A stretch of DNA of 49,407 bases from a virus: positions 1 through 49,407 of the IMG/VR virus record IMGVR_UViG_3300027714_000023. The stretch is one strand, 5' to 3'. Within the stretch, counting starts at the first letter, position 1. Each line of letters starts with the position of its first letter. Of this stretch, positions 1-33,693 are shown in pieces. A program made the position numbers and the translations under genes. Below the pieces are notes generated by a model. The model searched no databases, was not told the DNA's origin, and saw nothing but the letters and a program-made list of their open reading frames with translations.

Positions 1-2
1 TT

Positions 3-899
3 AACGAAGGTAAATGGGGTAATATAATGAAAGGAGTTAGAAAAGGATCTAAGTCTGGTCCTTGGACAGTAGTGTCTATACAAAATAATAAGGTTGTTAA
101 TCAAGAACATGTTGATATAATGGATGCTATTCCTGCATTTTATGAAAAAGCTAAAAAAGAGTTTCCTAAAGCTCGTATTTCAATTGAAGATAACGAAGGA
201 CACAGTGTTTACAACGAATCTAAAGTTACTAATAAACTTAAAAATACAATGTTATTTGAACAGTATTTGAATGAAGGGGTTTTATTTGGTAAAAAAGGAA
301 TAAAAATCAAATTGGAAGATAAAATAAAAATTGCAAAAGAAGCAGTTTCTAAATACAATTCATCTTTCTATATAAAAGTATTAGATAAATTAGAAAAACA
401 ACTTAAGTCTGGTAAAATAGACGCAAAAGACATTTTAACAGTTCAGGGAACTTCGGAAGAAGACATGCCTGGTTCTTTTGATATATTTGATGGTGGAAAT
501 TCAAACCAACTTGCAGTTCAAATAGCTAAGGTACTTAAGAAATATAAGAAACACGAAACAGATAATTCACAAACAAAAGCAGCAGCTGGATGGTCAGGTA
601 CCGCAATGAGTAGCGTTAGTGGAAAAATACAAGCTGGAGTTAGTTTTGGAACAGGACGTGAAACTTATTTAATAGGAGTAATGATAGGTTCTGGTATACC
701 AAGTAATATTAGTGATAAAATAAAACAAGAGATATATAACTTGTTATTTATATTCGATCAATTCGGAGGAAATGACGGTGGAGTATATGTTTCAGATTCA
801 CAAGGATCTAATTACGATTCGATAGGGTTAATTTGTCGCAAATATTCGTTTAATGATGCAGTTGGAAGATCTTTAACTGATATAATGAACAACAGATAG
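3..899 (+). CDS. Putative capsid-targeted internal protein (5' end outside window)
   Basis: The first ATG is at 27, but the frame is open to the window edge and reads NEGKWGNI just before that ATG, so the real start is probably upstream. The residue before NEG has a codon ending in TT (F, I, V or L), so the window may begin inside a capsid-targeting-like segment. A second such segment, MLFEQYLNEG, starts at the internal ATG at 249. The middle is lysine-rich and the C-terminal half is glycine/serine-rich with no domain I recognise. By analogy with T4 internal proteins, cleavage after Glu by the prohead protease would leave the rest inside the capsid. That role is inferred. I do not recognise the mature protein. 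Confidence 0.6.
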   Translation, partial: NEGKWGNIMKGVRKGSKSGPWTVVSIQNNKVVNQEHVDIMDAIPAFYEKAKKEFPKARISIEDNEGHSVYNESKVTNKLKNTMLFEQYLNEGVLFGKKGIKIKLEDKIKIAKEAVSKYNSSFYIKVLDKLEKQLKSGKIDAKDILTVQGTSEEDMPGSFDIFDGGNSNQLAVQIAKVLKKYKKHETDNSQTKAAAGWSGTAMSSVSGKIQAGVSFGTGRETYLIGVMIGSGIPSNISDKIKQEIYNLLFIFDQFGGNDGGVYVSDSQGSNYDSIGLICRKYSFNDAVGRSLTDIMNNR

Positions 900-908
900 A
901 AAATAAAT

Positions 909-2789
909 ATGGCACTTCAAAAATTAAGAGAACATTTTCAAGGAACTAATATAAACGAGTTTCAGAGGCTATTAAAAAATAGAGTGATGGTTGTTGAAAA
1001 AATATCAGCTCCTTCATTTTATGTTAGAAGAGTAAATGACAAATTTGAATATTATAAATCTTCAAATGGTAAACCTCTTACTATAGTAGATAGGACTATT
1101 ATGTCTCTATATGAAGTTGCAATAAAACACATACAAAGTTTAAACCCAATACATAAAGAGGAATTACCTCAAGATTATAGATTTGGATTTGAGTACTTGC
1201 CAGAAACTAATGTTTCTTCAATATCATATGATAAAGCTCCTACAAATAACTTAATACTTACACACGTTCAACACATATCTGAATCAGGTAAAGTTAAAAA
1301 GACTATAATAGATCCAGTTGTTTTATCAAAATGGTCTAAGGTACTTAATGTTCAAAAACAAGAAGTTATTTTTGATGGAGTCTTAAATCAATTACAAGTT
1401 GAAAAGCTTGTAAAATTACTAGAAATGAATGATAAGGAATTTTCTACTTCGTTCGATTATGATATATCTACAGATATTGAAACTAGTTTCACTAAAGAAG
1501 TTTATAAAATATTTAATCCAAACTCAAGAGCATCGCTTTTACATAACGATTTAGAACAAGAAATAGAATCTTTAGTATTAAACTTTTCTGAAGGAAAGAA
1601 AATATCTTCTTTTAAGTTAGAAGATTTTACTAGAACTAATGTTAATGAAATAAGAGAGAGTTCTCACATGTATCAAATCGCAATCGCTGACATACTAGAA
1701 CATTGTATCAAGTATGATTTCAAAGAAATACAGTTAGTTGAAGAGAGTGCAAACCAGAGGTACCTAGAGCTAATGTCTGTTGTATTTAACGACTACATAT
1801 CTAAAAATGCTTCTAGATACATTGGAGTTAACTTCGATAATGCAGAATTTTCAAACTCAAACTCATTTAAACTGAATACAAACTTTATTAAGAATGAGAA
1901 AACATTAAGACACGTTTCAAACGAAGTTCTTTCTTCTCTATTCAAAATAACTTTAGGTACTTTTAGAAAACAAAAATCAAAATCATCTGACATTATAAAC
2001 GATGATATGGTTCTTCAGTTAAACACGATAGTAGATAAAATAAATGAAGCAATCTTTGTAGAAAATACAGATGAAAATTCTATATATGACTACAATAACT
2101 TCATGATGCATACCAAGATAAAAAGTACAGTAAATCTAAACGAAGCACTAACAGTAGACCATGGAGAACAAGGTAAACAACCAGTGAATATCTTTGTTGG
2201 TAGATTTCAACCATTTACACTAGGACATGCAAAGGTACTTGAATCAATTCATAAAGAAAATGGATTTCCAGTTATTGTATTTTTAATAAAAGGAAAGGCT
2301 GTTAAAAAAGGTGATGAATTTAGAAAACCATATTCGACAGATACTCAGATTGAAATGTTTAAAAAAGTACAGAAACAATATAAGTTTCTAAAAGAAATAA
2401 TAGTTCTACCAAGTGCTGCAATAGACAAAATGTTTAATGCACTTAGACCTAAATATGAACCAATACTATGGGGAACAGGTACTGATAGAATGAAATCTTA
2501 TGGATATCAAGTAAATAATGATTCTTATAGAGATCAGTTAAACGTAAATAAAGATTTTGCTCTTTTTGAAATACCAAGATCTGACGACAACATCTCAGCA
2601 ACTAATGTACGTAACGCAATGTTAGACGGAGATGAAAAGACGTTTAAGAAAATGACACCAAAGGGAATTCATAAAATGTATTCTACCTTAAAATCTGAAT
2701 TAGAATCATCAATGGAATTAGTATCTGCATCTAAAATTATAGATAGTAGTCTAATGACATATGAACAATTCATTAATAAGTTAAAATAA
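909..2789 (+). CDS. RNA-ligase-like nucleotidyltransferase fused to NMN-adenylyltransferase-like domain
   Basis: 626 aa with two nucleotidyltransferase modules. Residues about 25-240 carry Rnl2-type RNA ligase motifs: EKISAPSF with candidate nucleotidyl lysine K31 (EKxxG in the family; Gly is Ala34 here), RFGFEYL with E95 (motif III), IESLVLNF with E220 (motif IV) and SSFKLED with K236 (motif V). The K31-E95 spacing of 64 equals that of T4 Rnl2. Residues about 426-600 form an HxGH nucleotidyltransferase of the NMNAT/NadM type: GRFQPFTLGH (431-440, first His replaced by Thr) and ISATNVR (562-568). The C-terminus ends in MTYEQFINKLK, which resembles the T4 capsid-targeting peptide. Possible roles are RNA repair or NAD-linked nucleic acid chemistry. 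The substrate is unknown, and altered motifs leave activity uncertain. Confidence 0.75.
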   Translation: MALQKLREHFQGTNINEFQRLLKNRVMVVEKISAPSFYVRRVNDKFEYYKSSNGKPLTIVDRTIMSLYEVAIKHIQSLNPIHKEELPQDYRFGFEYLPETNVSSISYDKAPTNNLILTHVQHISESGKVKKTIIDPVVLSKWSKVLNVQKQEVIFDGVLNQLQVEKLVKLLEMNDKEFSTSFDYDISTDIETSFTKEVYKIFNPNSRASLLHNDLEQEIESLVLNFSEGKKISSFKLEDFTRTNVNEIRESSHMYQIAIADILEHCIKYDFKEIQLVEESANQRYLELMSVVFNDYISKNASRYIGVNFDNAEFSNSNSFKLNTNFIKNEKTLRHVSNEVLSSLFKITLGTFRKQKSKSSDIINDDMVLQLNTIVDKINEAIFVENTDENSIYDYNNFMMHTKIKSTVNLNEALTVDHGEQGKQPVNIFVGRFQPFTLGHAKVLESIHKENGFPVIVFLIKGKAVKKGDEFRKPYSTDTQIEMFKKVQKQYKFLKEIIVLPSAAIDKMFNALRPKYEPILWGTGTDRMKSYGYQVNNDSYRDQLNVNKDFALFEIPRSDDNISATNVRNAMLDGDEKTFKKMTPKGIHKMYSTLKSELESSMELVSASKIIDSSLMTYEQFINKLK

Positions 2790-2793
2790 TGTA

Positions 2794-2803
2794 GATATAT
2801 AAT
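2794..2803 (+). promoter_or_regulatory. Late-type promoter box
   Basis: GATATATAAT, 31 nt before the ATG at 2834. The identical decamer precedes 25367, 30024 and 43734. It resembles the T4 late TATAAATA box that gp55 recognises. Assignment rests on recurrence and position. Confidence 0.55.
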
Positions 2804-2833
2804 CTTATAATATATAAAAAACATATAACTAAT

Positions 2834-4330
2834 ATGAATCTTAATGAAAGAAAAGTACAACTAAAGAGAAGATATACCGAAAACTATCCAGCTAAAACTG
2901 CAGGAACTTCTGCTAAAATAAGAAACAAAGTTTTAGAGGCTATTAAAGACGGTAAGATATCACAGAAAGATTATGACAATATCGTCTCAGAATTATCAAA
3001 TGATTCTAAAAGATGGTCATCTAGAAACTCAAAATATTTCAGTGTCTCTGAGGAAGGAATTTCATTATCTAAATTCGGAATGAAAATATTTAATTCAATT
3101 ACAATGAACGAAAAGAAAGACGAAAATCCAGAGATCTGGGTACCAGAAGGATTTGATAAGGCAATTTCTAAATTTCCAAACTCTCAAATATCAATTGAAG
3201 TTGTTACTAAACTAGCAAAAAAACATAAAGTATCTATTTCTGACGCAATAGCGTATGTCGAATACGGATGGGAATTAGATTTAAAAGAAAACAAAACTAA
3301 TATGAAAACTAATTTTATTTACGAATCATTTTCAGAATTCGTAGGATCTTTAAACGAACCTATATTAAACGAATCTTATATAAACGAAGCATTTAAATCT
3401 TCTAAATTAAAGAATTTATTAACTATGAGTTCATCTGATGGTTACCAAAAAACTGGAGACCTTGCTAAGAGATTTTATGAGTATACTAAAATTAAATTAG
3501 ATCTAGTTGATGACAGTCATATATTAGACATGGATATGAAAGACGCTTTTAAAGCATCTAAGGATAATGATAGAGTTATCTTTTATGTATTAGATAAAGA
3601 TACAAGAAGTCCATATGGTGATGATAACCCTGGAATGTTACATCCTGGTCTTTTAGCAATTTCTAGAGGAAAAGATTTCTTAGGATATAGCTCAAGAGGA
3701 GGAGGAAGATATACACAAGGTACTAAAACACTTTCTAAAGATGGAGTAGATGTTGGAGCTAATAAAAGATACAAAGGATACGGTGCTACTGGATTATCTT
3801 CAGTTAAAAGAATTATAGAGGTTGCCGATAGAGCTTATTCTATTAGTATATCATCACTACAAACACTTATAGGTTCTGCAGGTCAAAAGGAAGAACGTAA
3901 AGCAGCAAAGGCTGGAGCAACTGCATTTAAATCAGATAAAGATTTTAAATCAGAAAACAATAGCAGATACGAAGCTATATTAGCTAATAAAGCATCAAAA
4001 TTACCTTTAGATAAATTAGTTAAAGATGCAATCGACGCTATGTCAGAGCAGATTAAGTCAGGTATTTCTTCAAATGAAATTGGTAGATACGGAGATCCTA
4101 TAATCGGAAAGAGTAAAAAAGGAAAAGAAGTTAAATTAAGAGATGCCGCTAACCACATGTCAGGTATATTAGATGATTATTCTAGATACGTTGATTATGT
4201 AAAGCAAGAAGCAGATGTTAAAACTCAATACGGAAAAGCAGAATCATGGTATACTAAATCTGTTAAAGAATACGCTAAACGTACTATGGATAAAATAAAG
4301 CAAATAGACGATATGTCTTACGCTTGGTAA
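2834..4330 (+). CDS. Unknown protein with internal capsid-targeting-like segment
   Basis: 498 aa, no recognisable enzyme domain. Residues 1-156 are a charged N-terminal part. An internal ATG at 3302 (M157) opens MKTNFIYESFSEFVGSLNE, followed closely by ILNE and INEA, giving three possible (I/L)-x-E cleavage sites of the gp21 type. The C-terminal part (about 190-498) is Ser/Gly/Lys-rich and contains a glycine-rich stretch, YSSRGGGRYTQGTKTL. It may be a two-part polyprotein cleaved during head maturation, or a fusion of two ancestral genes. It has its own late-type promoter box at 2794. I do not recognise a function; an injected internal head protein is the working idea. Confidence 0.6.
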   Translation: MNLNERKVQLKRRYTENYPAKTAGTSAKIRNKVLEAIKDGKISQKDYDNIVSELSNDSKRWSSRNSKYFSVSEEGISLSKFGMKIFNSITMNEKKDENPEIWVPEGFDKAISKFPNSQISIEVVTKLAKKHKVSISDAIAYVEYGWELDLKENKTNMKTNFIYESFSEFVGSLNEPILNESYINEAFKSSKLKNLLTMSSSDGYQKTGDLAKRFYEYTKIKLDLVDDSHILDMDMKDAFKASKDNDRVIFYVLDKDTRSPYGDDNPGMLHPGLLAISRGKDFLGYSSRGGGRYTQGTKTLSKDGVDVGANKRYKGYGATGLSSVKRIIEVADRAYSISISSLQTLIGSAGQKEERKAAKAGATAFKSDKDFKSENNSRYEAILANKASKLPLDKLVKDAIDAMSEQIKSGISSNEIGRYGDPIIGKSKKGKEVKLRDAANHMSGILDDYSRYVDYVKQEADVKTQYGKAESWYTKSVKEYAKRTMDKIKQIDDMSYAW

Positions 4331-4355
4331 TTATAAAATAAAATAATAAAATAAG

Positions 4356-4712
4356 ATGGCAAAATTTAAATCATTTAAATTATTCACAGAATCTATCGTT
4401 AATGAAGCTGAAGTTAGAAAACCAAGAGGCTTAGAACCTTTTGCAAATGATATGAAAGAAGAGGGAAGAGATGTTGAATTACATTTAGCCACTTTTGATG
4501 GACGTTCTTTTAAGGCACAGTCAACAGATAAAACATGGGATGATGGAGTACCTGTAACTAAAAACTTTTCACGAGGAGGTTACAAATCAGTAACAATTAA
4601 AAAGGGAGAACATTGGATAATTGAAGTTGACACATTCTGGTACATTCTAGTTGGCAGAACATGGTATGCTGTTAAAAGGGAACAATACGGAACACCTCCG
4701 TTTGATTATTAA
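4356..4712 (+). CDS. Small putative capsid-targeted internal protein
   Basis: 118 aa. The N-terminus MAKFKSFKLFTESIVNEA closely parallels the T4 internal-protein targeting peptide MKTYQEFIAEA, with predicted cleavage after VNE at residue 17. The remaining ~100 aa would be the mature protein, which contains several aromatic residues (HWIIEVDTFWYILVGRTWYA) suggesting a small beta-rich fold. The leader is A-rich (AAATAATAAAATAAG) with no Shine-Dalgarno. The next gene starts 2 nt downstream, so they are probably co-transcribed. The cargo function is unknown. Confidence 0.65.
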   Translation: MAKFKSFKLFTESIVNEAEVRKPRGLEPFANDMKEEGRDVELHLATFDGRSFKAQSTDKTWDDGVPVTKNFSRGGYKSVTIKKGEHWIIEVDTFWYILVGRTWYAVKREQYGTPPFDY

Positions 4713-4713
4713 T

Positions 4714-5580
4714 ATGAAAGAAAATACAACACCATCAAACATAGGAGGTATGGGAGAAATTCTATTACCAACTCAAACACAAGACGGCAGTGGAGATATC
4801 CCATCGGGACAAGGAGACGCTGATAAGAAAAACAAAAAGAAAAAGAAAATGGCAACATTAAAAACATTTAAAGCATTCACAGAATCTATTATTACTGAGA
4901 AGTTTAATTTCTCTGAAAAAGAAGTAAGGGCTGCTGCTGAAGCGCTAGCAAAAGCAATGGCAAAGTTAGATAACGTTCATGTTGGTGTTCATGATTTTGA
5001 ATATGATAAAGGAAGAGGAGCAGGTTTTGAATTATCATGGGGTGGAGAAGACTTCGACGGTGGTAGTTATTACATAAAAGATAATGGTGATGTTATTAAT
5101 GCTGCAGTTGGCGGTGGAACTAAATATGGTAATATTAAAGACACTGAAAAAACTTTTATGAAAGGTCTTAAAAAGGCTGAGCCTAGCATGAGAGAATCAA
5201 GAAACGAATCTAAGCTTTCTATTGAGGAACTTAACGAATCATTCGAATCTTATTATTTTCACAAAGATGCTTTTAGAGGATATACAACAATAAGTAAAGG
5301 AGAAACTCAATACGCTGTTATTACACATAACAAGATAACATTAAACAAACAGAACATGACCCTAAAGGATGAAAATGATTATTCAATAGGAGCAGCTTTT
5401 AAACCGAAAGCAGTATCTGTATTTAAAGAAGAATCTGACGCAAAGACAGAATACGATAAAGCAGTTAAAAAAGGAGGATCAGGTGCAAATCTATCTTTTT
5501 CTTATGGAACTATTACTAATGCAGGCGCAAATACAAGCTACGTACAAATTGAAGGAATGATGGCAGCTTTAAAATATTAA
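4714..5580 (+). CDS. Putative capsid-targeted internal protein with extra N-terminal leader
   Basis: I place the start at the ATG at 4714, right after the stop of the previous gene; a further upstream ATG at 4651 would lie inside that gene. The protein is then 288 aa. Residues 1-45 form a leader (MKENTTPSNIGGMGEILLP, then a Gly/Ser stretch and KKNKKKKK). They are followed at M46 (ATG at 4849) by MATLKTFKAFTESIITEKF, a capsid-targeting-like segment almost the same as in the preceding gene. Two products from two starts are possible. The remainder has an N-terminal alpha/beta region and a C-terminal part with LNESFESYYF. It looks like a sibling of the 4356 gene with different cargo. Function unknown. 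Confidence 0.6.
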   Translation: MKENTTPSNIGGMGEILLPTQTQDGSGDIPSGQGDADKKNKKKKKMATLKTFKAFTESIITEKFNFSEKEVRAAAEALAKAMAKLDNVHVGVHDFEYDKGRGAGFELSWGGEDFDGGSYYIKDNGDVINAAVGGGTKYGNIKDTEKTFMKGLKKAEPSMRESRNESKLSIEELNESFESYYFHKDAFRGYTTISKGETQYAVITHNKITLNKQNMTLKDENDYSIGAAFKPKAVSVFKEESDAKTEYDKAVKKGGSGANLSFSYGTITNAGANTSYVQIEGMMAALKY

Positions 5581-5682: not shown

Positions 5683-5922
5683 ATGAACAACCAATTCTTA
5701 TTTAAACCAGAAAACTACGAAAAGTGGTCTAAAGAAGCCCTTGATAAGGTAACAAAAGTAATAGACTCATGCACTGCATTGTCTCATTTAGAAACTGCTA
5801 AAACGATGACAGATCATTTTATATTAATGTTAGCCATCAACGAGACATACCCAGCAGATACGATACAGGATATATCGAAGCAACTTTACTTATACCTTTC
5901 ATTAAAAGAAAGTAACATATGA
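5683..5922 (+). CDS. Hypothetical protein, 79 aa
   Basis: A small, mostly helical protein starting MNNQFLFKPENYEKW. It is the first gene after the terminator at 5632. Its stop overlaps the next ATG by 4 nt (ATGA), so it is translationally coupled to the cytidylyltransferase. I see no motif that gives a function. Confidence 0.6.
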   Translation: MNNQFLFKPENYEKWSKEALDKVTKVIDSCTALSHLETAKTMTDHFILMLAINETYPADTIQDISKQLYLYLSLKESNI

Positions 5923-6488
5923 GTAATACAAAAAGAAAGATAGGCTTTACTGCAGGTAATTTTGACCTTTTACATCCTGGTTACATATATACCTTTGAAA
6001 CTGCTAAACAGCACTGTGATTACTTCATGGTTTTTTTACAGATAGATCCATCAGAAACAAGATTCACAAAATACAAACCCGTTATTCCATTATACGAGAG
6101 ATATAAAACTCTTATGGCTATTAGATATATTGATGAGGTTGTTACATATCAAACTGAAGAAGATTTAATAAAGCTAATAGAATTTTATAAGCCAGATATT
6201 AGAATATTAGGAGATGATTATATCGGTAAAGGTTTTTCAGGAGACGATTTAAGTCCAGAGGTAATATACACTACAAGATCTCACGGGTGGTCTACAACTA
6301 AACTAAAGGATCTTATTACAATGCAAACTGTAAAACAAAATCCAGAACTAATTGATAGATCTAAGAATGAAGGAACTACTTCTCCTGCTCAGAAATTAAT
6401 GAGACAGATCAGAGATCAAATAGCAAGTTTCTCAGAAGGTAAATTAACAGAAGAAGAATACAAGAAAAATATTAAACAACTACTATAA
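5919..6488 (+). CDS. Cytidylyltransferase-like protein (TagD/RfaE C-terminal family)
   Basis: 189 aa. The N-terminal ~140 aa are a nucleotidyltransferase of the glycerol-3-phosphate cytidylyltransferase / heptose-1-phosphate adenylyltransferase family. The signature loop reads GNFDLLHPGY (residues 13-22), so HxGH is HxGY here. The C-terminal signature is RSHGWSTTKL, matching the RTxGxSTT motif. ERYKTLMAIRYIDEVV and the following GDDYIGKGF are also typical. Such enzymes transfer CMP or AMP to a phospho-sugar or polyol. About 50 extra helical residues follow the domain. The neighbouring sugar dehydratase suggests a nucleotide-sugar pathway. The replaced second His is at an ATP/CTP-binding position, so activity should be treated with caution. 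Confidence 0.8.
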   Translation: MSNTKRKIGFTAGNFDLLHPGYIYTFETAKQHCDYFMVFLQIDPSETRFTKYKPVIPLYERYKTLMAIRYIDEVVTYQTEEDLIKLIEFYKPDIRILGDDYIGKGFSGDDLSPEVIYTTRSHGWSTTKLKDLITMQTVKQNPELIDRSKNEGTTSPAQKLMRQIRDQIASFSEGKLTEEEYKKNIKQLL

Positions 6489-6491
6489 GAT

Positions 6492-7433
6492 ATGAGAGTA
6501 ATCGTAACAGGAGGGTTTGGATTTATAGGATCTTCTTTCGTAAATTTATTAAATAAAAACTTTAAACATCTCGACGGAAATAATGAAGTAGTTATTTTAG
6601 ATAAGATGACATACGCTGCAGATCCAAATAACATTAAAGAACCTACTTCAGTTATAATAAAAGATATATGCGATGTTACAGCAGAGGATCTAGGAGATTA
6701 TGACTACTTGGTACATTTTGCGGCAGAGAGCCATGTAGATAACTCTATTAAAGATGGAAAACCTTTTATTAGAACTAATGTCGAAGGAACCTTTAATCTC
6801 TTAGAGTGTGCCAAACAGAATCCTAACTTAAAGAAGTTCATACATATATCAACTGACGAGGTTTATGGAGATATGGATGATATAAGCAAAGAAGCAGAAG
6901 CTGACGAATCTTTCGTAATTAAAGGATCATCATACTATTCAGCAAGTAAAGCATCTAGTGACTTATTAGTAGAAGCATGTGGAAGAACATTCGGATTACC
7001 TTATGTAATAACAAGAACATGTAATAACTACGGAGAACACCAGAACGAAGAAAAGTTTATTCCAAAGATAATGAAATCAATATCTAATAATCTAACTATC
7101 CCAGTATATGGTGACGGTAAGCAAATTAGAGAATGGATCGACTCCGATGACAATGCATCTTTAATCTATGCAATTATGTTATCAGATATAAAGGGAGAAG
7201 TCCTTAATATAGGAAGTGGAGAAAGTTATGAAAATATAGATATTATTTTTATGATAGGAGAAATGTTAGGAAAAACACCTAACTTCGAATTCGTAGAAGA
7301 TAGATTAGGACACGATAAAAGATATGCAATAAACTCCTCTAAAGTTAGAAACCTTTTTCCAAAATGGGAAACTGTTTCATTCAAAGAATTTTTATTAAAA
7401 CAAGTTAACATAATTAAAAACAAAAACAAATGA
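6492..7433 (+). CDS. rmlB: NAD-dependent sugar epimerase/dehydratase, dTDP-glucose 4,6-dehydratase-like
   Basis: 313 aa extended short-chain dehydrogenase. It shows the NAD-binding glycine motif TGGFGFIG (residues 6-13), HFAAESHVDNS (75-85), the catalytic T-D-E triad in ISTDEVYG (T121, D122, E123) and YxxxK (Y149, K153). The T-D-E triad is characteristic of RmlB-type 4,6-dehydratases rather than plain 4-epimerases. The product would be a 4-keto-6-deoxy nucleotide sugar. It starts 3 nt after the cytidylyltransferase and probably acts with it. Whether the sugar goes to phage DNA, virion protein or a host surface glycan cannot be read from the sequence. The exact substrate is uncertain, so the symbol marks the family. 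Confidence 0.85.
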   Translation: MRVIVTGGFGFIGSSFVNLLNKNFKHLDGNNEVVILDKMTYAADPNNIKEPTSVIIKDICDVTAEDLGDYDYLVHFAAESHVDNSIKDGKPFIRTNVEGTFNLLECAKQNPNLKKFIHISTDEVYGDMDDISKEAEADESFVIKGSSYYSASKASSDLLVEACGRTFGLPYVITRTCNNYGEHQNEEKFIPKIMKSISNNLTIPVYGDGKQIREWIDSDDNASLIYAIMLSDIKGEVLNIGSGESYENIDIIFMIGEMLGKTPNFEFVEDRLGHDKRYAINSSKVRNLFPKWETVSFKEFLLKQVNIIKNKNK

Positions 7434-9058: not shown

Positions 9059-10087
9059 ATGAAAGTAGCAATCACATCAGTATTCTCAAATCTAACATAC
9101 AATAAAAAGAATCACAGAGGTTTGGAAATTGTATACTTTAAGCAATTGTTAGAAGAAAACAATTATGAAGTAGATCTTATTGGAAAGAAAGGACGTAACA
9201 CTGCAGATTTAGATTTCTATGTAGATTACACAGAAGCAAACTGGGATCAATATGACGCTGTATTTATCCAATTAAGTACTGCAAACTTCTTCGGAGGTCA
9301 AGTAGGAGCCCATACAGAAACAGTGGCTCGTGAAATTGCAGGATATAAAGGAAAGATCTTTACTCTTGTGAATGATCCTCGTATTGATTTCTTGAATCCA
9401 GTAGAAAAATTGAAGAGATTCAATCTAATCCAAGATCTTGAATCTGAGTGGTCTGATGTGATTGAGAATGCTACGTATTTATTTCCTGGTAAAGATATTA
9501 GTAAATTCTTAGGAAGAACTCCAAAGAACTGGAAACAATTAGACTGGTTTACTTATATGTTTAAGCAAAGAATGGAAATCAAACAAACGATTCCAACAAA
9601 CGCACTATTCGATTTTGATACTCCTAAAAAAGAAAATGATTTAATATACTACGGAGATAATCGCGCAGCATTTAGAGAGAAGCAAATTAGAAAGTACTTT
9701 CCAGATAGCGAAAACAATTTACTAATAGGATATAAAACTAAAAAAGTAAATGCACCCTTTGTAAAGAAGATGGAACACTCTGTTTTATTAGATACAATTT
9801 CAAAAAGTAAAGCAAGTTTAATTATAGGAGATGCAGAACACTTAGATAATGTAATAACATACAGGTTCTACGAAACTATGGCATCTGATTGTCTTGCTGC
9901 AATTCAAATAGAATACGATCCAAACAAAGAATTAATTAGTGATCCGGTTTTACGTGATATACTATATGTAAAATCAAAGTCTGATGTTGAGAAGTTAATA
10001 AGTTCTTACTCAGAAGATTTAATTTCACGACAAAAGAAAGAATTAGAAAACATTTTCAATAATCTTGATATAACCTTTAAAATATAA
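9059..10087 (+). CDS. bgt: DNA glycosyltransferase, T4 beta-glucosyltransferase-like
   Basis: 342 aa, close in size to T4 beta-glucosyltransferase (351 aa) and similar along its length. Shared features are the N-terminal MKVAITSVFSN strand, the NFFGG loop (about residues 79-83), the DPRIDF strand after it, and the C-terminal sugar-nucleotide-binding block LIIGDAEHLDNVITYRFYE followed by TMASD. The T4 enzyme moves glucose from UDP-glucose to 5-hydroxymethylcytosine in DNA, protecting it from host nucleases. The adjacent gp56-type dCTPase supports a modified-cytosine genome. No dCMP hydroxymethylase lies in this window. The donor sugar may differ from glucose, given the sugar-nucleotide genes 2 kb upstream. 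Confidence 0.85.
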   Translation: MKVAITSVFSNLTYNKKNHRGLEIVYFKQLLEENNYEVDLIGKKGRNTADLDFYVDYTEANWDQYDAVFIQLSTANFFGGQVGAHTETVAREIAGYKGKIFTLVNDPRIDFLNPVEKLKRFNLIQDLESEWSDVIENATYLFPGKDISKFLGRTPKNWKQLDWFTYMFKQRMEIKQTIPTNALFDFDTPKKENDLIYYGDNRAAFREKQIRKYFPDSENNLLIGYKTKKVNAPFVKKMEHSVLLDTISKSKASLIIGDAEHLDNVITYRFYETMASDCLAAIQIEYDPNKELISDPVLRDILYVKSKSDVEKLISSYSEDLISRQKKELENIFNNLDITFKI

Positions 10088-26225: not shown

Positions 26226-26603
26226 TTGGCTCGTAAAAAAAATTATCTAAATAACAAAGACTTCTACGCTGAGATGGTTCTCTCGAAGGATGCTGATGTA
26301 CTAACTAAGACTGCAGAAAAGATGTTAATTCTTTTAGCAGAAAAAACTATCAATAAAATGAGATATGTAAGTGAAGATGATCGTAATGATTGTTTACAAT
26401 TCGCTATGCTAGATCTTCTTAAATATTGGAGAAACTTTAACCCTAAATATCCTAATGCTTTCGCATACTTTACAGAAATTGCAAAGAGAGGATATGCTAA
26501 AGGATGGAATAAAATACATCCACAGAAATACAAAGGAACTATCTCTATTGGAGGTAACTCTGGAGGAGGCGAAGGAGAAGGTTCAGGTATCTACACTATA
26601 TAA
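26226..26603 (+). CDS. 55: Late-transcription sigma factor gp55-like
   Basis: 125 aa with a TTG start (no closer ATG gives the conserved N-terminus MARKKNYLNNKDFYAEMV). The core matches sigma region 2 as in T4 gp55: DDRNDCLQFAMLDLLKYWRN, then NPKYPNAFAYFTEIAKRGYAKG. gp55 directs host RNA polymerase to late promoters when coupled to the clamp. The gene is shorter than T4 gp55 (185 aa) and ends in a glycine-rich tail GGGEGEGSGIYTI. The TTG start and lack of Shine-Dalgarno suggest low translation. Candidate target boxes recur through the window. Confidence 0.8.
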   Translation: MARKKNYLNNKDFYAEMVLSKDADVLTKTAEKMLILLAEKTINKMRYVSEDDRNDCLQFAMLDLLKYWRNFNPKYPNAFAYFTEIAKRGYAKGWNKIHPQKYKGTISIGGNSGGGEGEGSGIYTI

Positions 26604-29316: not shown

Positions 29317-29958
29317 ATGAAACACGTAAAATTATTCGAACAGTTTGTTAATGAAGCAAAGACTTTAGATAGAAAAGCCATGATGTCTTGGTTTAAAAGT
29401 AAAGGAAGAGACTTCGTAAAAACAAGTGAAGAGTTCAACGGTGAAGAATCAGGAATCTGGTTAAGTAAATCAGATGGTGATAAACAAATAGATCGAAGCG
29501 TATCAACTGCTAAGTTTGATAATGGAGTATTAAAGTCTTTTAGAAAGCAAGCTGCTGATAGGGGATGGGAAATAACATTTTACGATGATTCAACTATAAT
29601 GTGCTGGCCTGATTCAGTATTATCTGAAGCTGTTAAAGTAACTCCAGAATCAGATATTAAAGTAGATGACTATACTACTGATGATTCTCAAGAAATTAAA
29701 GCAGTTGAAATTGTTGGAGCTATTGTAAGTTCTGATACTGAAGACGAATTTATAGAATACTTTTACGAGACATACGGTCAAGGAGCATTTACAGAGACAG
29801 ATATATTTACTTTGATAAAGTATTATAATGAGTATGTAGAAGAAGTTACTGCCATAGAAACAGAGAAAGAAGAAGAAGAGAAAGAAAATCCAACAGCAGA
29901 TGGAGATGAAGATTCAGGAGATTCTATCGATGATGAAATAGCAGCATTAGAGAAATAA
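29317..29958 (+). CDS. Prohead core protein with capsid-targeting-like N-terminus
   Basis: 213 aa. It begins MKHVKLFEQFVNEAKT, a near match to the T4 capsid-targeting peptide, with cleavage expected after VNE at residue 13. The C-terminal ~45 residues are very acidic (ETEKEEEEKENPTADGDEDS), as in small T4 core proteins such as gp67/gp68. Its position between portal and protease is that of gp67/gp68. It probably lies in the scaffold core and is cleaved during maturation. It may be a paralogue in targeting segment only of the 4356 and 4714 genes. Confidence 0.65.
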   Translation: MKHVKLFEQFVNEAKTLDRKAMMSWFKSKGRDFVKTSEEFNGEESGIWLSKSDGDKQIDRSVSTAKFDNGVLKSFRKQAADRGWEITFYDDSTIMCWPDSVLSEAVKVTPESDIKVDDYTTDDSQEIKAVEIVGAIVSSDTEDEFIEYFYETYGQGAFTETDIFTLIKYYNEYVEEVTAIETEKEEEEKENPTADGDEDSGDSIDDEIAALEK

Positions 29959-30023: not shown

Positions 30024-32108
30024 ATGATCAAAAAAGACTTATTAATCTTAGAAAGATCTTCTTCTAGTTTAGATTTAAAGAACGAGAATGGGATTTACGT
30101 ATTAGAAGGTATTTTCGGCGAGTTAGATAAAAAGAATAAAAACAATAGAATCTACACAGCAGAAGAGTATTTACCACAAATCGAATCGTTACAAGACAAA
30201 ATTAAATCTTCAAAATTATTAGGTGAATTAGATCATCCTTCTAACTTTGATGTATCTTTAAAGAATGTATCTCATGTTATCGAGGAAATTACATACGATA
30301 AAGAAAACAAGCAAATTAAAGGACGTATTAGATTATTAGATACCGATGCAGGTAGACAAGCTAAGGCTTTAGTAGATGCAGGTGTTCCTTTACAAATATC
30401 ATCTAGAGCAGCAGGAGCTGTTGAAGAGAATGGTACTGTAAAAATCAAACAACTATTTACATATGATTTAGTTGCTGATCCAGGATTTGCCAACGCAGAA
30501 TTAACAAGAGTTAATGAATCTTATGGATTTGGTAATGACTCTGACATATTAATATATGAAATAGGTGCTAGTGCATCACAAATTAACGAAACCAAAATAG
30601 AAAATAAAGAAACAGAAACAATGGCAGAATCAAAATTCATCACTGTTGAGGACTTTAATAAATATTCGAAATATCTTTCTGAAGAAATTAAGTCTATTAA
30701 AGAGTCTCTAACAGAAGCAAGCGAAAAAGGTAATGAAACAGAATTAGCAGAAATAAAAGAATACACTAGCTATTTAGCTGAAAAATTAGATCAATCAATA
30801 AAGTACGCAGAGCATATCGCTGAAAAGACTGATCAAAATATTCAGTATACAGAACATGTTGCAGAAAAGACTGATCAAGTTATTCAGTATTCAGAGCATA
30901 TCGCAGAAAAGACTGATCAAGTTATTCAGTATTCAGAACATGTTGCAGAAAAAACAGATCAATCAATACAGTACGCAGAAAGCTTAGCTGAAAAGGTAGA
31001 TCAATCAATTCAATACTCTGAGCATATTGCTGGTGGTGTTGATAAAATTAAAGAGTATACTAATTATTTAGCAGAATCTTATAATGAAGGTGCAACAACT
31101 CACGAGAGTTTATTAGAGTATGTTGGATATTTAAAAGAAAACTTAGAAAAAGTATCTGATTACGCTGAATACGTTGCTGAAACTGTAAATTCTAATTTAA
31201 TAGTAGAAGATGAAGCAGGAATTCCAGCTGAAGATATTAAAACTGATACAACTGATGTTACAAAACCTATAGTTGATGCAGAAGGAAACGTAATTGACGG
31301 AGAAGTTGAAAACGTTGAAGGTGATTTAGAACTAGACGGTGAAGGAGAAGCTGAAGGAGAAGTAGTAGCTGAAGACAGATCTGAAGATATTGAAGACGAA
31401 ACCAAAGAATTAGGAGAACCTAAGAAACTTCAAGAATCTGAAGAATCTGAAGAAGAAGAAGCTTACGAAGATGAAGAAGAAGTAACTGAAGATAGAGCAA
31501 AAGATATCGAAGACGAAATCAAAGAATTAGGAGAACCTAAGGACGGTAAATTAGCTGCTAAAAACGAAGAAGTTGATTCGTTAGATGCTTACAAGAATTC
31601 AATCACTGAAAAGTTACAATCATTAATTAATAAGGCTGAAGAAAACAAAACAAAAGATCCACACTTCTTTAAATTTGTATCAGAATCTGCAAGAACAGAA
31701 TTTAATGAATTAGCAACAGAAGATAAAACTAAAGTATTATCTGCAATCGAAGGAAGAGGATTCCTAACAGAAGGACAAATCTTAGGATTATGGCAAAATT
31801 CTTTATTAAACGCGGTAGTAGCAACTGACCCTAAGGTAGTTACTTTAATGCCAACTGAATATAAAGACACTTACGCTAAATTATCAGAAGCTAAAAAAGG
31901 ATCAATCTTAGCACAATCTAAATACCACGTATTAGAAACTGCTTATCAAGTTGCAAATTTCTGGCAAACTAGAGACTTAAGAGATACTACAGTAGTTATG
32001 GAGAAAGTTGAAATGGTAAAAGAATCTAAAGAAGTTGAAGTAAAATCAACAATTGGATATGATACTAAGGATATAGCAGCACAAATTGCAAATAGATTTA
32101 AAAAGTAA
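30024..32108 (+). CDS. 21-22: Prohead protease gp21 fused to scaffold gp22
   Basis: 694 aa. Residues 1-165 are a gp21-type protease of the herpes-assemblin-like fold: GELDHPS with H71, QISSRAAG with S126/S127, and DLVADPGF with D152 are the likely catalytic residues. A linker contains SQINET with a possible self-cleavage after E189, then an internal ATG at 30621 (M200). The rest is scaffold-like: 14-aa coiled-coil repeats (247-344), an acidic Glu-rich stretch (about 390-510) and a helical C-terminal domain (about 520-694), as in gp22. T4 encodes these as two genes. Here one ORF could give protease-scaffold and, from the internal start, scaffold alone. Confidence 0.88.
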   Translation: MIKKDLLILERSSSSLDLKNENGIYVLEGIFGELDKKNKNNRIYTAEEYLPQIESLQDKIKSSKLLGELDHPSNFDVSLKNVSHVIEEITYDKENKQIKGRIRLLDTDAGRQAKALVDAGVPLQISSRAAGAVEENGTVKIKQLFTYDLVADPGFANAELTRVNESYGFGNDSDILIYEIGASASQINETKIENKETETMAESKFITVEDFNKYSKYLSEEIKSIKESLTEASEKGNETELAEIKEYTSYLAEKLDQSIKYAEHIAEKTDQNIQYTEHVAEKTDQVIQYSEHIAEKTDQVIQYSEHVAEKTDQSIQYAESLAEKVDQSIQYSEHIAGGVDKIKEYTNYLAESYNEGATTHESLLEYVGYLKENLEKVSDYAEYVAETVNSNLIVEDEAGIPAEDIKTDTTDVTKPIVDAEGNVIDGEVENVEGDLELDGEGEAEGEVVAEDRSEDIEDETKELGEPKKLQESEESEEEEAYEDEEEVTEDRAKDIEDEIKELGEPKDGKLAAKNEEVDSLDAYKNSITEKLQSLINKAEENKTKDPHFFKFVSESARTEFNELATEDKTKVLSAIEGRGFLTEGQILGLWQNSLLNAVVATDPKVVTLMPTEYKDTYAKLSEAKKGSILAQSKYHVLETAYQVANFWQTRDLRDTTVVMEKVEMVKESKEVEVKSTIGYDTKDIAAQIANRFKK
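30762..31055 (+). repeat. 42-bp coding tandem repeats (14-aa coiled coil)
   Basis: Seven units of 14 codons with consensus Y-S-E-H-I-A-E-K-T-D-Q-V-I-Q. The central copies are almost identical in DNA (GCAGAAAAGACTGATCAAGT recurs). An eighth, decayed unit follows. Fourteen residues equal two heptads, so copies can be added or lost without breaking the coiled coil. Confidence 0.9.
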
Positions 32109-32322: not shown

Positions 32323-33693
32323 ATGGCAAATTTAATTAACGAATCTGAAGTAAGAGGAACATGGTCTCCGATCATCGAATCTGCAACAGGAATCAACGAT
32401 GCTAGTAAATTAGCATGGATGTCGACTTACTGTCACAACCACAAACTTTATGAAGACGCTAACATTATGTCTTTAGATCCATCAATGAACTTAACAGGTA
32501 TGGGAGCAACAGCTTTTCCATCTGCAGGAGGAAACGGATCAGGAGATAAAGCTCCATCTTTATTACCTTTAGCAATGCAAGTTGCTGCTCAAACTGTAGG
32601 TTTAGATTTAGTACCAGTAATTCCAATGGCTGGACCAATGGGATTATTATCTTATTTAGACTTTACTTATGAAGGTGGTAAATTAGACGGTGTTGTTAAC
32701 CCAACTTACATCAAAACTGCAGAAGCTGCTTCTTCAGGAGATGTTGTTGAAGGAACTTCAAGATTAGACGGAAAGAACATTATCAAAATTGGTGCTACAA
32801 CTGAAGCTGCTGGTGTTATTACTGTAACTTATGCAGATGCTGTATTAGTTAAAGCATTAGAAGATCACATCAAAGGATTTACAGGAGCAGATGCTGCTGG
32901 AACACCTTATTCGAGAGAAGCTGGTGAATCAACTCCTGACAAGATCATGGGATTATCTTTATTCTCTAAATCAGTTTCAGCTAAGACTTACCAAGTTGCA
33001 GCTGCTGTTACTAGAGAGCAAGTTCAAGATTTAAAGCAATTCGGAGTAGATGCTGTAGCTCAAGTTGAGTCAGTATTAACTAACGAATTAACACAATCTA
33101 TTAACCAGCACATCTTAGGTTCTATTAGAACTTTAGGAGCTGATAACGTTACTGCATTCGGATCATCTTTTGATATCGCATTATCTGCAGCATCTGCATT
33201 AACTGGAGGAGATACTGTAGCTTCGGCACACAGACAAATCTTAACTCAAGTTTTAGCAGCAGCTAATTTAATCGCTAACAGAGGACGTAGAGGAGCAGGA
33301 AACTTCGCAGTAGTTGGAGCACAAGTTGCTACAGTATTACAAGCAGTTTCTGGTTTCGTTGCAAATCCAATGGCTAACACTATTTCTCAATCGGCTGGAG
33401 CAATCTATCCATTAGGATCAGTTGCTGGGATTAACGTATATACTGACCCTACATTAGCATGGTCAGATATGTCAGTATCAGTTGGAAGAAAAGGAGACGG
33501 AAACGGACCTGGATTAGTATTCATGCCTTATTTAATGGCTGAATCAGTACAGACTATCGCTGAAGGAACTATGGCACCAAAGATCGCTGTAAAATCTAGA
33601 TTTGCATTAGTTGAAGCTGGATTCCACGCTGAAACTCAATATGTTACTTTTAACGTAACTGGATCATGGTCTAACTTAATCAACTTAGTATAA
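32323..33693 (+). CDS. 23: Major capsid protein gp23
   Basis: 456 aa, shorter than T4 gp23 (521 aa). Similar segments include EVRGTWSPIIESATG near the N-terminus, DLVPVIPMAGPMGLLSYLDF, AAAVTREQVQDLKQFGVDA with ELTQSINQHILGSIRTLG, RGRRGAGNFAVVGAQVATVL and the C-terminal KIAVKSRFALVEAGFHAETQ (HK97 fold). T4 removes 65 N-terminal residues after Glu. Here the only comparable early site is LINE at residues 4-7, so the removed peptide may be very short. The codon use is highly biased, fitting the most abundant protein. Confidence 0.95.
   Translation: MANLINESEVRGTWSPIIESATGINDASKLAWMSTYCHNHKLYEDANIMSLDPSMNLTGMGATAFPSAGGNGSGDKAPSLLPLAMQVAAQTVGLDLVPVIPMAGPMGLLSYLDFTYEGGKLDGVVNPTYIKTAEAASSGDVVEGTSRLDGKNIIKIGATTEAAGVITVTYADAVLVKALEDHIKGFTGADAAGTPYSREAGESTPDKIMGLSLFSKSVSAKTYQVAAAVTREQVQDLKQFGVDAVAQVESVLTNELTQSINQHILGSIRTLGADNVTAFGSSFDIALSAASALTGGDTVASAHRQILTQVLAAANLIANRGRRGAGNFAVVGAQVATVLQAVSGFVANPMANTISQSAGAIYPLGSVAGINVYTDPTLAWSDMSVSVGRKGDGNGPGLVFMPYLMAESVQTIAEGTMAPKIAVKSRFALVEAGFHAETQYVTFNVTGSWSNLINLV

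Follow-up and report, generated by a model that had tools for sequence, protein, structure and literature searches.

The 49,407-bp window analyzed here is an IMG/VR fragment of 32% GC (IMGVR_UViG_3300027714_000023) that opens with five adjacent genes, P1 to P5, whose products contain short segments resembling the capsid-targeting leader of phage T4 internal proteins (Ips). T4's few injected proteins are specific inhibitors of bacterial restriction systems. We consider it probable that this cluster belongs to a large set of T4-type proteins that are capsid-targeted, protease-processed, and injected, the set being numerous and partly in the form of polyproteins. With only somewhat better than even confidence, we propose a modular arsenal: dozens of effectors per virion, encoded singly or as strings of modules of 50–100 residues each, cut in the capsid and delivered with the DNA, belonging to well over 150 mostly unknown families that are identifiable by a 13-residue leader. 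In its polyprotein format, its scale, and a recognizable P2, the system exceeds what a preliminary description of the window had seen.

A leader shared by unrelated cargoes

How widespread is the leader among related phages? Three related contigs were read whole (G001, 256 kb; G002, 234 kb; G007, 149 kb), together with 130 kb of a fourth (G005); gene calls were mechanical, and the contigs are incomplete. The neighborhoods of P3 relatives hold many other genes beginning with MKHIKLFEQFINE/A and similar peptides (a slash marks the predicted cut throughout), and the consensus in relatives is K-L-F-E-Q-F-[ILV]-N-E/[ASGK]. Using a matrix of 11 columns built from the related phages, with a gene called tagged at 14 bits or more, we found 25 tagged genes in G001, 24 in G002, 12 in G007, and 9 in G005; as background, 8 bits is reached by 0.1% of interior windows. 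The recurrence of leader-like segments in the cluster had been reported before: every segment then quoted is present, and a strict form of the motif occurs at 49 of 306 nonredundant N-termini in relatives, vs. 1.0 in shuffles and 10 of 3,132 interior 25-mers. When the search used the helix half only and Glu was not required, the residue before the cut was nevertheless Glu in 76 of 84 leaders, and the residue after it (P1′) was Ala, Ser, Gly, or Lys in 62. At least 119 IMG/VR stretches match the DNA pattern of the strict leader, and some 20 genes of LR756500 (an uncultured 462-kb phage) carry a variant, MKYIKEYEDFINE-like leader. A short-peptide tblastn search of annotated phages returned LR756500 and LR745206 only, both weakly, and nothing stood out when the matrix was applied to two cultured relatives, Tenacibaculum phage PTm1 and Pelagibacter phage HTVC008M.

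Does the same matrix recognize the T4 proteins? Its seeds were drawn by a pattern from the related genomes themselves, and knowledge of the quoted T4 peptide had helped to shape that pattern; among 566 T4 open reading frames (ORFs) it ranks IpII first, IpIII second, the scaffold protein gp22 (LIAE/A) third, and gene 61.1 fourth, after which scores fall. The product of T4 gene 61.1 (AF158101, 18966–19130) starts MKTFKEFIKE/D and is possibly an unrecognized capsid-targeted protein.

What lies behind the leader is highly diverse. The 354 tagged proteins group into about 150 cargo families, of which 82 have a single member, and when 94 cargo families were aligned, the leader was the sole common part. 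The 117 clustered tagged proteins fall into 71 cargo families, none of which is repeated within a genome (families per tagged genes: 25/25 in G001, 24/24 in G002, 11/11 in G007, and 8/8 in G005). Pfam scans of 74 tagged proteins identified two homologues of Acb1, which counters the cyclic oligonucleotide-based antiphage signaling system (CBASS), as well as Nudix, zeta/AAA kinase, GNAT, and ATP-grasp domains; PHROGs added an RNA ligase, and 94 further families contained nucleotidyltransferase, HD, PAP2, AAA, and GNAT domains (Pfam). The leader-bearing Acb1 homologues (G001:198662–199201 and G002:84671–85237) have both HxT motifs (HCT and HMT) and modest Pfam scores of 28.3 and 31.2 bits against a cutoff of 27, which makes them candidate injected anti-CBASS enzymes. 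These cargo classes match what would be expected of an early host-conflict set. A counter-defense role fits the two Acb1 homologues and the enzymes of RNA repair and nicotinamide adenine dinucleotide (NAD) metabolism but is conjectural for most cargoes.

Modules, junctions, and polyproteins

Seventeen cargo families are found in two settings, as single tagged genes and within longer proteins, and in 11 of the 17 best junctions the point of exchange coincides with a [hydrophobic]xE/[AG] site (1.5 expected; P = 1e-8). A strict junction motif, E[SA]xx[NTSD]E/[AGSKR], has 31 occurrences, spread over 13 of 949 proteins, where 1.0 was expected, and their median spacing is 85 residues; the proteins that contain it are tagged proteins, long polyproteins, or head-cluster proteins. 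The longest polyprotein (G002:160319) has 1,029 residues and eight sites, and it combines disparate domains in one polypeptide, as do a 913-residue protein and P2. A complete leader is present at some junctions (SLKHVLKLDQFLNE/S in G007:96821 and NTMLFEQYLNE/G in window P1), and only ESVVTE/A at others. This mixture suggests that tagged genes fused in frame and that the targeting half was lost later. An earlier junction test based on a loose alignment-boundary rule (70/404 vs. 7% at random) mixed in tail-fiber repeats and truncated ORFs and was replaced by the cargo-based test given here.

How does the window's own cluster fit this picture? Judged against shuffled window proteins (20 rounds; maximum 15.1 bits), two segments are strong: MKHVKLFEQFVNE/A at 29317 (33.9 bits), which bears out the report of the same peptide on the core protein there, and MLFEQYLNE/G at 249 (26.2 bits). 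The latter had been listed as a leader, and it is one by score, but it is internal, between two P1 modules, and not a gene start. Because the module behind it is a tagged gene of its own in G007, its Met looks like the remnant of a formerly separate gene. Likewise, the site suspected in the xNEG at the window's edge is real, but it is a module junction: phage L002, 93% identical to the window, reads NESINE/GKWGN there, preceded by a further module and an NESVVTE/A site, so that window P1 is the end of a longer polyprotein.

The cargoes of the cluster had been called mutually unrelated and unrecognized; the latter fails for P2. This protein joins an RNA-ligase-like nucleotidyltransferase to a nicotinamide mononucleotide adenylyltransferase (NMNAT)-like domain; it matches PF01467 (6e-8), and its AlphaFold2 model (mean predicted local distance difference test [pLDDT] 75) retrieved T4 Rnl2 (2hvr, 4.5e-7) and NMNAT/PPAT structures (template modeling score ∼0.65–0.71) in Foldseek. 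A tagged stand-alone NMNAT also exists (L026:633). The segment MTYEQFINKLK turned out to lie at the C-terminus of P2; it has no Glu and scores 12.6 bits, within the shuffled range when taken alone, but the MTFEQFIxx form is conserved at the C-terminus of 14 P2 homologues and is possibly a C-terminal packaging signal. The P1 modules and P3, P4, and P5 have no recognizable identity.

P3 begins MNLNE/RKVQLKRRYTEN, and the question of its leader, left open by the window alone, is settled by the N-termini of its 54 IMG/VR relatives, many of which start MKKFEEFIGE/G or MNFNDFLNE/K (MKKFEEFIGE/GKITLKRRYTEN, MNFNDFLNE/KRNVTLKRKYTEN, or METGMSFNEFINE/RNITIKRQYTQN); a search of annotated phages for P3 gave no match. 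The leader-like segment noted at 3311 looks like the start of another gene that has become fused into P3, the C module starting its own gene in G005 (MKHKFLFESFEEFTESLNE). That C-terminal domain was also considered as an Alt-like ADP-ribosyltransferase, an idea that was set aside (weak model, pLDDT 64; no fold match). The P4 cargo stands behind a canonical leader in G001:177713 (MKYIKLFEDFLNE/S) and behind NESKVNE/A inside G005:64238, and the P4 gene is absent from L002. P5a follows leaders in G002:153007 and L008:7689, and P5b stands alone in L052:7570. The segments reported at 4377 and 4870 (FTESIVNE/A in the segment at 4356 and FTESIITE/K in that at 4849) are weak by the leader matrix and match the junction class instead. 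A conserved small protein (MPSTSKAQQRLMGMAY...) with the linker GGMG..LP..GSGD..(K-rich) stops immediately ahead of a leader that has a Met of its own in L008:10062, L031:11312, L009:9728, and window 4714–4848; an internal translation start or a fusion point is possible there.

Head machinery and timing

The window encodes a plausible processing enzyme next to a leader-bearing core-like gene. Its gp21-type prohead protease has LGELDHP and QISSRA where T4 has LGELNHP and GVSSRG, the T4 His and Ser being conserved; the His of LGEL-x-HP and the first Ser of SSR are the likely catalytic pair, because both are Ala in the solved T4 construct. The C-terminal part of this protein is repetitive over about 550 residues (YSEHVAEKTDQSIQ repeats), and the whole is probably protease and scaffold in one protein. 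The core module of the neighboring core-like gene stands alone beside gp21 in G001, G002, and G005 and bears the leader in G001 and G005. The major capsid protein begins with the same kind of motif, which in relatives reads MAxLINE/A with LINEA conserved; that it is cleaved there is a guess. The protein after the capsid gene likewise has a leader or sites.

When would the tagged genes be expressed? Of 54 virion-gene orthologues, 32 have the element [AG]ATATATA in the 70 nt upstream, vs. 3 of 64 replication or metabolism genes (P = 3e-11); for portal, gp21, sheath, and tube, the figure is five of five each. The element precedes 23 of 71 tagged genes vs. 95 of 647 others (P = 5e-4; against replication genes, P = 5e-5), which suggests late expression, at virion time. 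We regard it as a putative analogue, of different sequence, of the T4 late promoter; the T4 late promoter itself (TATAAATA) is not enriched upstream of tagged genes.

Table 1. Positions of the clustered genes, their modules and sites, and the head and regulatory features of the window
Feature	Position	Strand	Description
P1	3–899	+	C-terminal end of polyprotein; starts at (ESI)NE/G junction
P1 module 1 (WGNIMKGVRKG...)	9–248	+	Stand-alone in G002:27723
P1 internal leader MLFEQYLNE	249–275	+	Reads NTMLFEQYLNE/G
P1 module 2	276–896	+	Stand-alone tagged gene G007:95954 (MKKVKLFEEFVNE/E), 51% identity, 2e-62
P2	909–2789	+	RNA-ligase-like N-terminal domain; NMNAT-like domain to ∼2723
P2 junction VNLNE/AL	2130–2144	+	Kept as [IVL]xE/[AG] in 14 homologues
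P2 C-terminal leader-like helix MTYEQFINK	2754–2780	+	No cleavage Glu
Two late-promoter-like elements before P3	2794–2816	+	GATATATA at 2794, AATATATA at 2809
P3	2834–4330	+	N module behind shortened leader MNLNE/R; C module 3389–4327
P3 retained start and leader	3302–3388	+	MKTNFIYESFSEFVGSLNE/PILNESYINE/A; resembles second gene start fused in
P4	4356–4712	+	Leader-like KLFTESIVNE/A (to 4406), 101-residue cargo
P5	4714–5580	+	Linker (PSNIGGMG..., Lys-rich); Met 4849 with MATLKTFKAFTESIITE/K (4849–4899); modules P5a, P5b
gp55-like late sigma	26226–26603	+	phrog_234, 6.5e-10; candidate reader of ATATATA element
Core-like gene	29317–29958	+	Between portal and protease (position of T4 67/68); leader 29317–29355
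Core-like gene, layout	to 29628 / beyond	+	Leader, extra module, SVLSE/A (to 29628); then conserved core module
gp21-type prohead protease with long repetitive C-terminal part	30024–32108	+	PF03420, 6e-12; 5jbl (solved T4 gp21), 3e-5
Major capsid protein	32323–33693	+	N-terminus MANLINE/S; same LINE/[AS] motif
Putative late-promoter elements	2794, 2809, 24033, 25337, 27673, 29992, 32213, 33766, 38762, 43695, 46107, 48199		Element seen across five related phages

Proposed mechanism and alternative explanations

How might such a system work? The N-terminal amphipathic leader would steer each protein into the prohead core, where the phage's gp21-type protease would cleave after the leader Glu and at the similar sites between modules ([ILV]xE/[AG]; e.g., ESVVNE/A), freeing small mature cargoes. 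These would remain with the DNA, be ejected into the host, and act ahead of phage gene expression to disarm nucleotide-signal and restriction defenses, to repair RNA and NAD, and to modify host proteins. Cargoes would be exchanged among phages behind a constant leader, and adjacent tagged genes would fuse in frame to give polyproteins.

Several observations weigh against an injected set of this kind. Most cargoes have no recognizable function, several window segments score weakly by the leader matrix, and the ATATATA element stands at just a third of the tagged genes (although at 10 of 14 where the upstream gap is at least 40 nt). The T4 ranking demonstrates likeness and not blind discovery, because the seed pattern was informed by the T4 peptide, and whether a capsid could hold at least 25 cargoes is a fair question. 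Packaging, cleavage, and ejection, as well as cargo function, are inferred from the genomes of uncultured phages; what was observed directly is the leader, the exchange of modules, the sites at junctions, the protease, the upstream element in common with virion genes, and the cargo homologies. Because several lines of evidence with little mutual dependence agree—likeness by matrix to T4, the protease, the leader of the core-like gene, Glu before the cut, the junction sites, and the upstream element—the T4-type capsid targeting and processing first proposed for the cluster is supported.

Could the tagged proteins serve the head itself? The leader would then be a scaffold-binding tag on core or structural proteins that are packaged and processed to build a very large head and have no host role. 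Large heads need much core protein, and the core-like protein by gp21 and the protein after the capsid gene share leader or sites. However, cargo identity varies between close phages, as with P4 and L002, the cargo families number about 150, and enzymes such as Acb1, Nudix, NMNAT, and RNA ligase would make a poor scaffold; we consider this reading improbable. We give still less credence to the leader being some other signal within the cell (membrane, replication-site, or chaperone targeting, or a degron) that resembles T4 by convergence. Short amphipathic helices are indeed common targeting signals, but a near-invariant Glu with small P1′ residues, the T4 ranking of Ips, the leader on a core-like gene beside the protease, and an upstream element common to virion genes are all at odds with it.

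An alternative at the level of DNA is that a segment at the 5′ end of a gene, such as a translation or recombination element, was recently duplicated and so produced the likeness, with no selection on the peptide. The leader is almost constant among unrelated genes, as duplication would have it; yet the identity of leader codons in four genomes (0.68, 0.62, 0.61, and 0.53) is close to that expected from codon usage (0.66, 0.59, 0.58, and 0.60, respectively), which indicates that the peptide rather than the DNA is conserved. Phe/Tyr, Ile/Leu/Val, and Glu/Gln swaps also occur, and LR756500 has its variant form. The codon test leads us to reject a DNA-level element in place of a peptide, and we find duplication barely credible. 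A more serious, if still unlikely, possibility accepts capsid-targeting leaders but takes the internal ESVVNE/A sites for flexible linkers, so that multi-module proteins act uncut, in the manner of polyvalent proteins, an established class (PMC5512222). Cleavage at internal sites is predicted from sequence, which leaves room for such linkers. Against them stand the specificity of [hydrophobic]xE/[AG], which is not a generic linker composition, the placement of sites at exchange points, and the whole old leader kept at some junctions.

Relation to known systems

Among T-even phages, the internal proteins are diverse defense proteins whose only common part is the targeting sequence (PMC3012670), and Ip1–3 block distinct type IV restriction enzymes (PMC12373910). 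By sequence, the tagged set has the main testable features of this class: a leader of the form aromatic-x-x-F-I-x-E/A, as in T4 IpI, IpII, and IpIII, nonhomologous cargoes that share the leader only, and a gp21-type protease, all known here from genes. It differs in number, with 24 to 25 tagged genes in the two largest contigs vs. three Ips in T4 and 10 or more across the T-evens, and in its polyproteins, the long C-terminal part of its protease, its Acb1, NMNAT, and Nudix cargoes, and its occurrence in Bacteroidetes-type phages. T4 Acb1 (gene 57B, anti-CBASS) belongs to the same HxT/HxT 2H phosphodiesterase family (PMC9117128) but has no leader, whereas the homologues here carry one.

Polyvalent proteins (Iyer et al. 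2017) also have several unrelated domains per polypeptide and are predicted to be injected. In contrast, the proteins described here have repeated prohead-protease-like sites between modules, the modules also occur as single tagged genes, and processing is predicted in trans. Pfam scans of 74 and 94 tagged proteins and of the window proteins, in which the longest polyproteins were not scanned singly, contained none of the polyvalent-class domains ART, MPTase, MuF, and SWI2/SNF2. Ejection (inner-body) proteins of phiKZ-like phages such as SPN3US are likewise packaged in large numbers, several being cut by the prohead protease (PMC10052503, PMC7411985), but most SPN3US head proteins remain uncut (42 uncleaved), while here a short leader is common to dozens of cargoes. 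The Dar proteins of phage P1 are head-packaged anti-restriction proteins, and the N-terminal 30 residues of DarB suffice for packaging (PMC9024508); unlike the set described here, they have no consensus leader. We found no description of this tagged set in the literature covered, from which subscription journals and preprints were mostly absent.

If the proposal is correct, the leader lets injected effectors be cataloged from sequence and offers a route to candidate anti-defense proteins of uncultured phages, the polyprotein format is a new way to load a phage head, and one can ask whether huge phages owe their survival to being fully armed on arrival. The leader on Acb1 and NMN-adenylyltransferase homologues suggests that counter-CBASS activity and NAD repair may start before phage gene expression.

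Genome context of the window

The window is a piece of a huge T4-like phage; its genes include those for a portal, a gp21-type protease, a capsid protein, a large terminase, and a gp55-like late sigma, as well as tail and replication genes. The nearest relative of its capsid protein is that of LR756500 (52%), followed by those of Prevotella Lak megaphages (37%). Capsid-protein relatives were sought in bacterial genomes for host assignment, and no cellular contig was found; the host is probably one of the Bacteroidetes, which the low GC content and A-rich upstream regions fit.

A beta-glucosyltransferase-like gene lies at 9059–10087 (phrog_7922, 1.7e-21). The DNA of this phage may therefore be glucosylated, in which case type IV restriction enzymes would be a threat and injected inhibitors useful. 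A small sugar-nucleotide cluster at 5919–7433 consists of an HldE-like adenylyltransferase gene followed by a dTDP-glucose-dehydratase-like gene.
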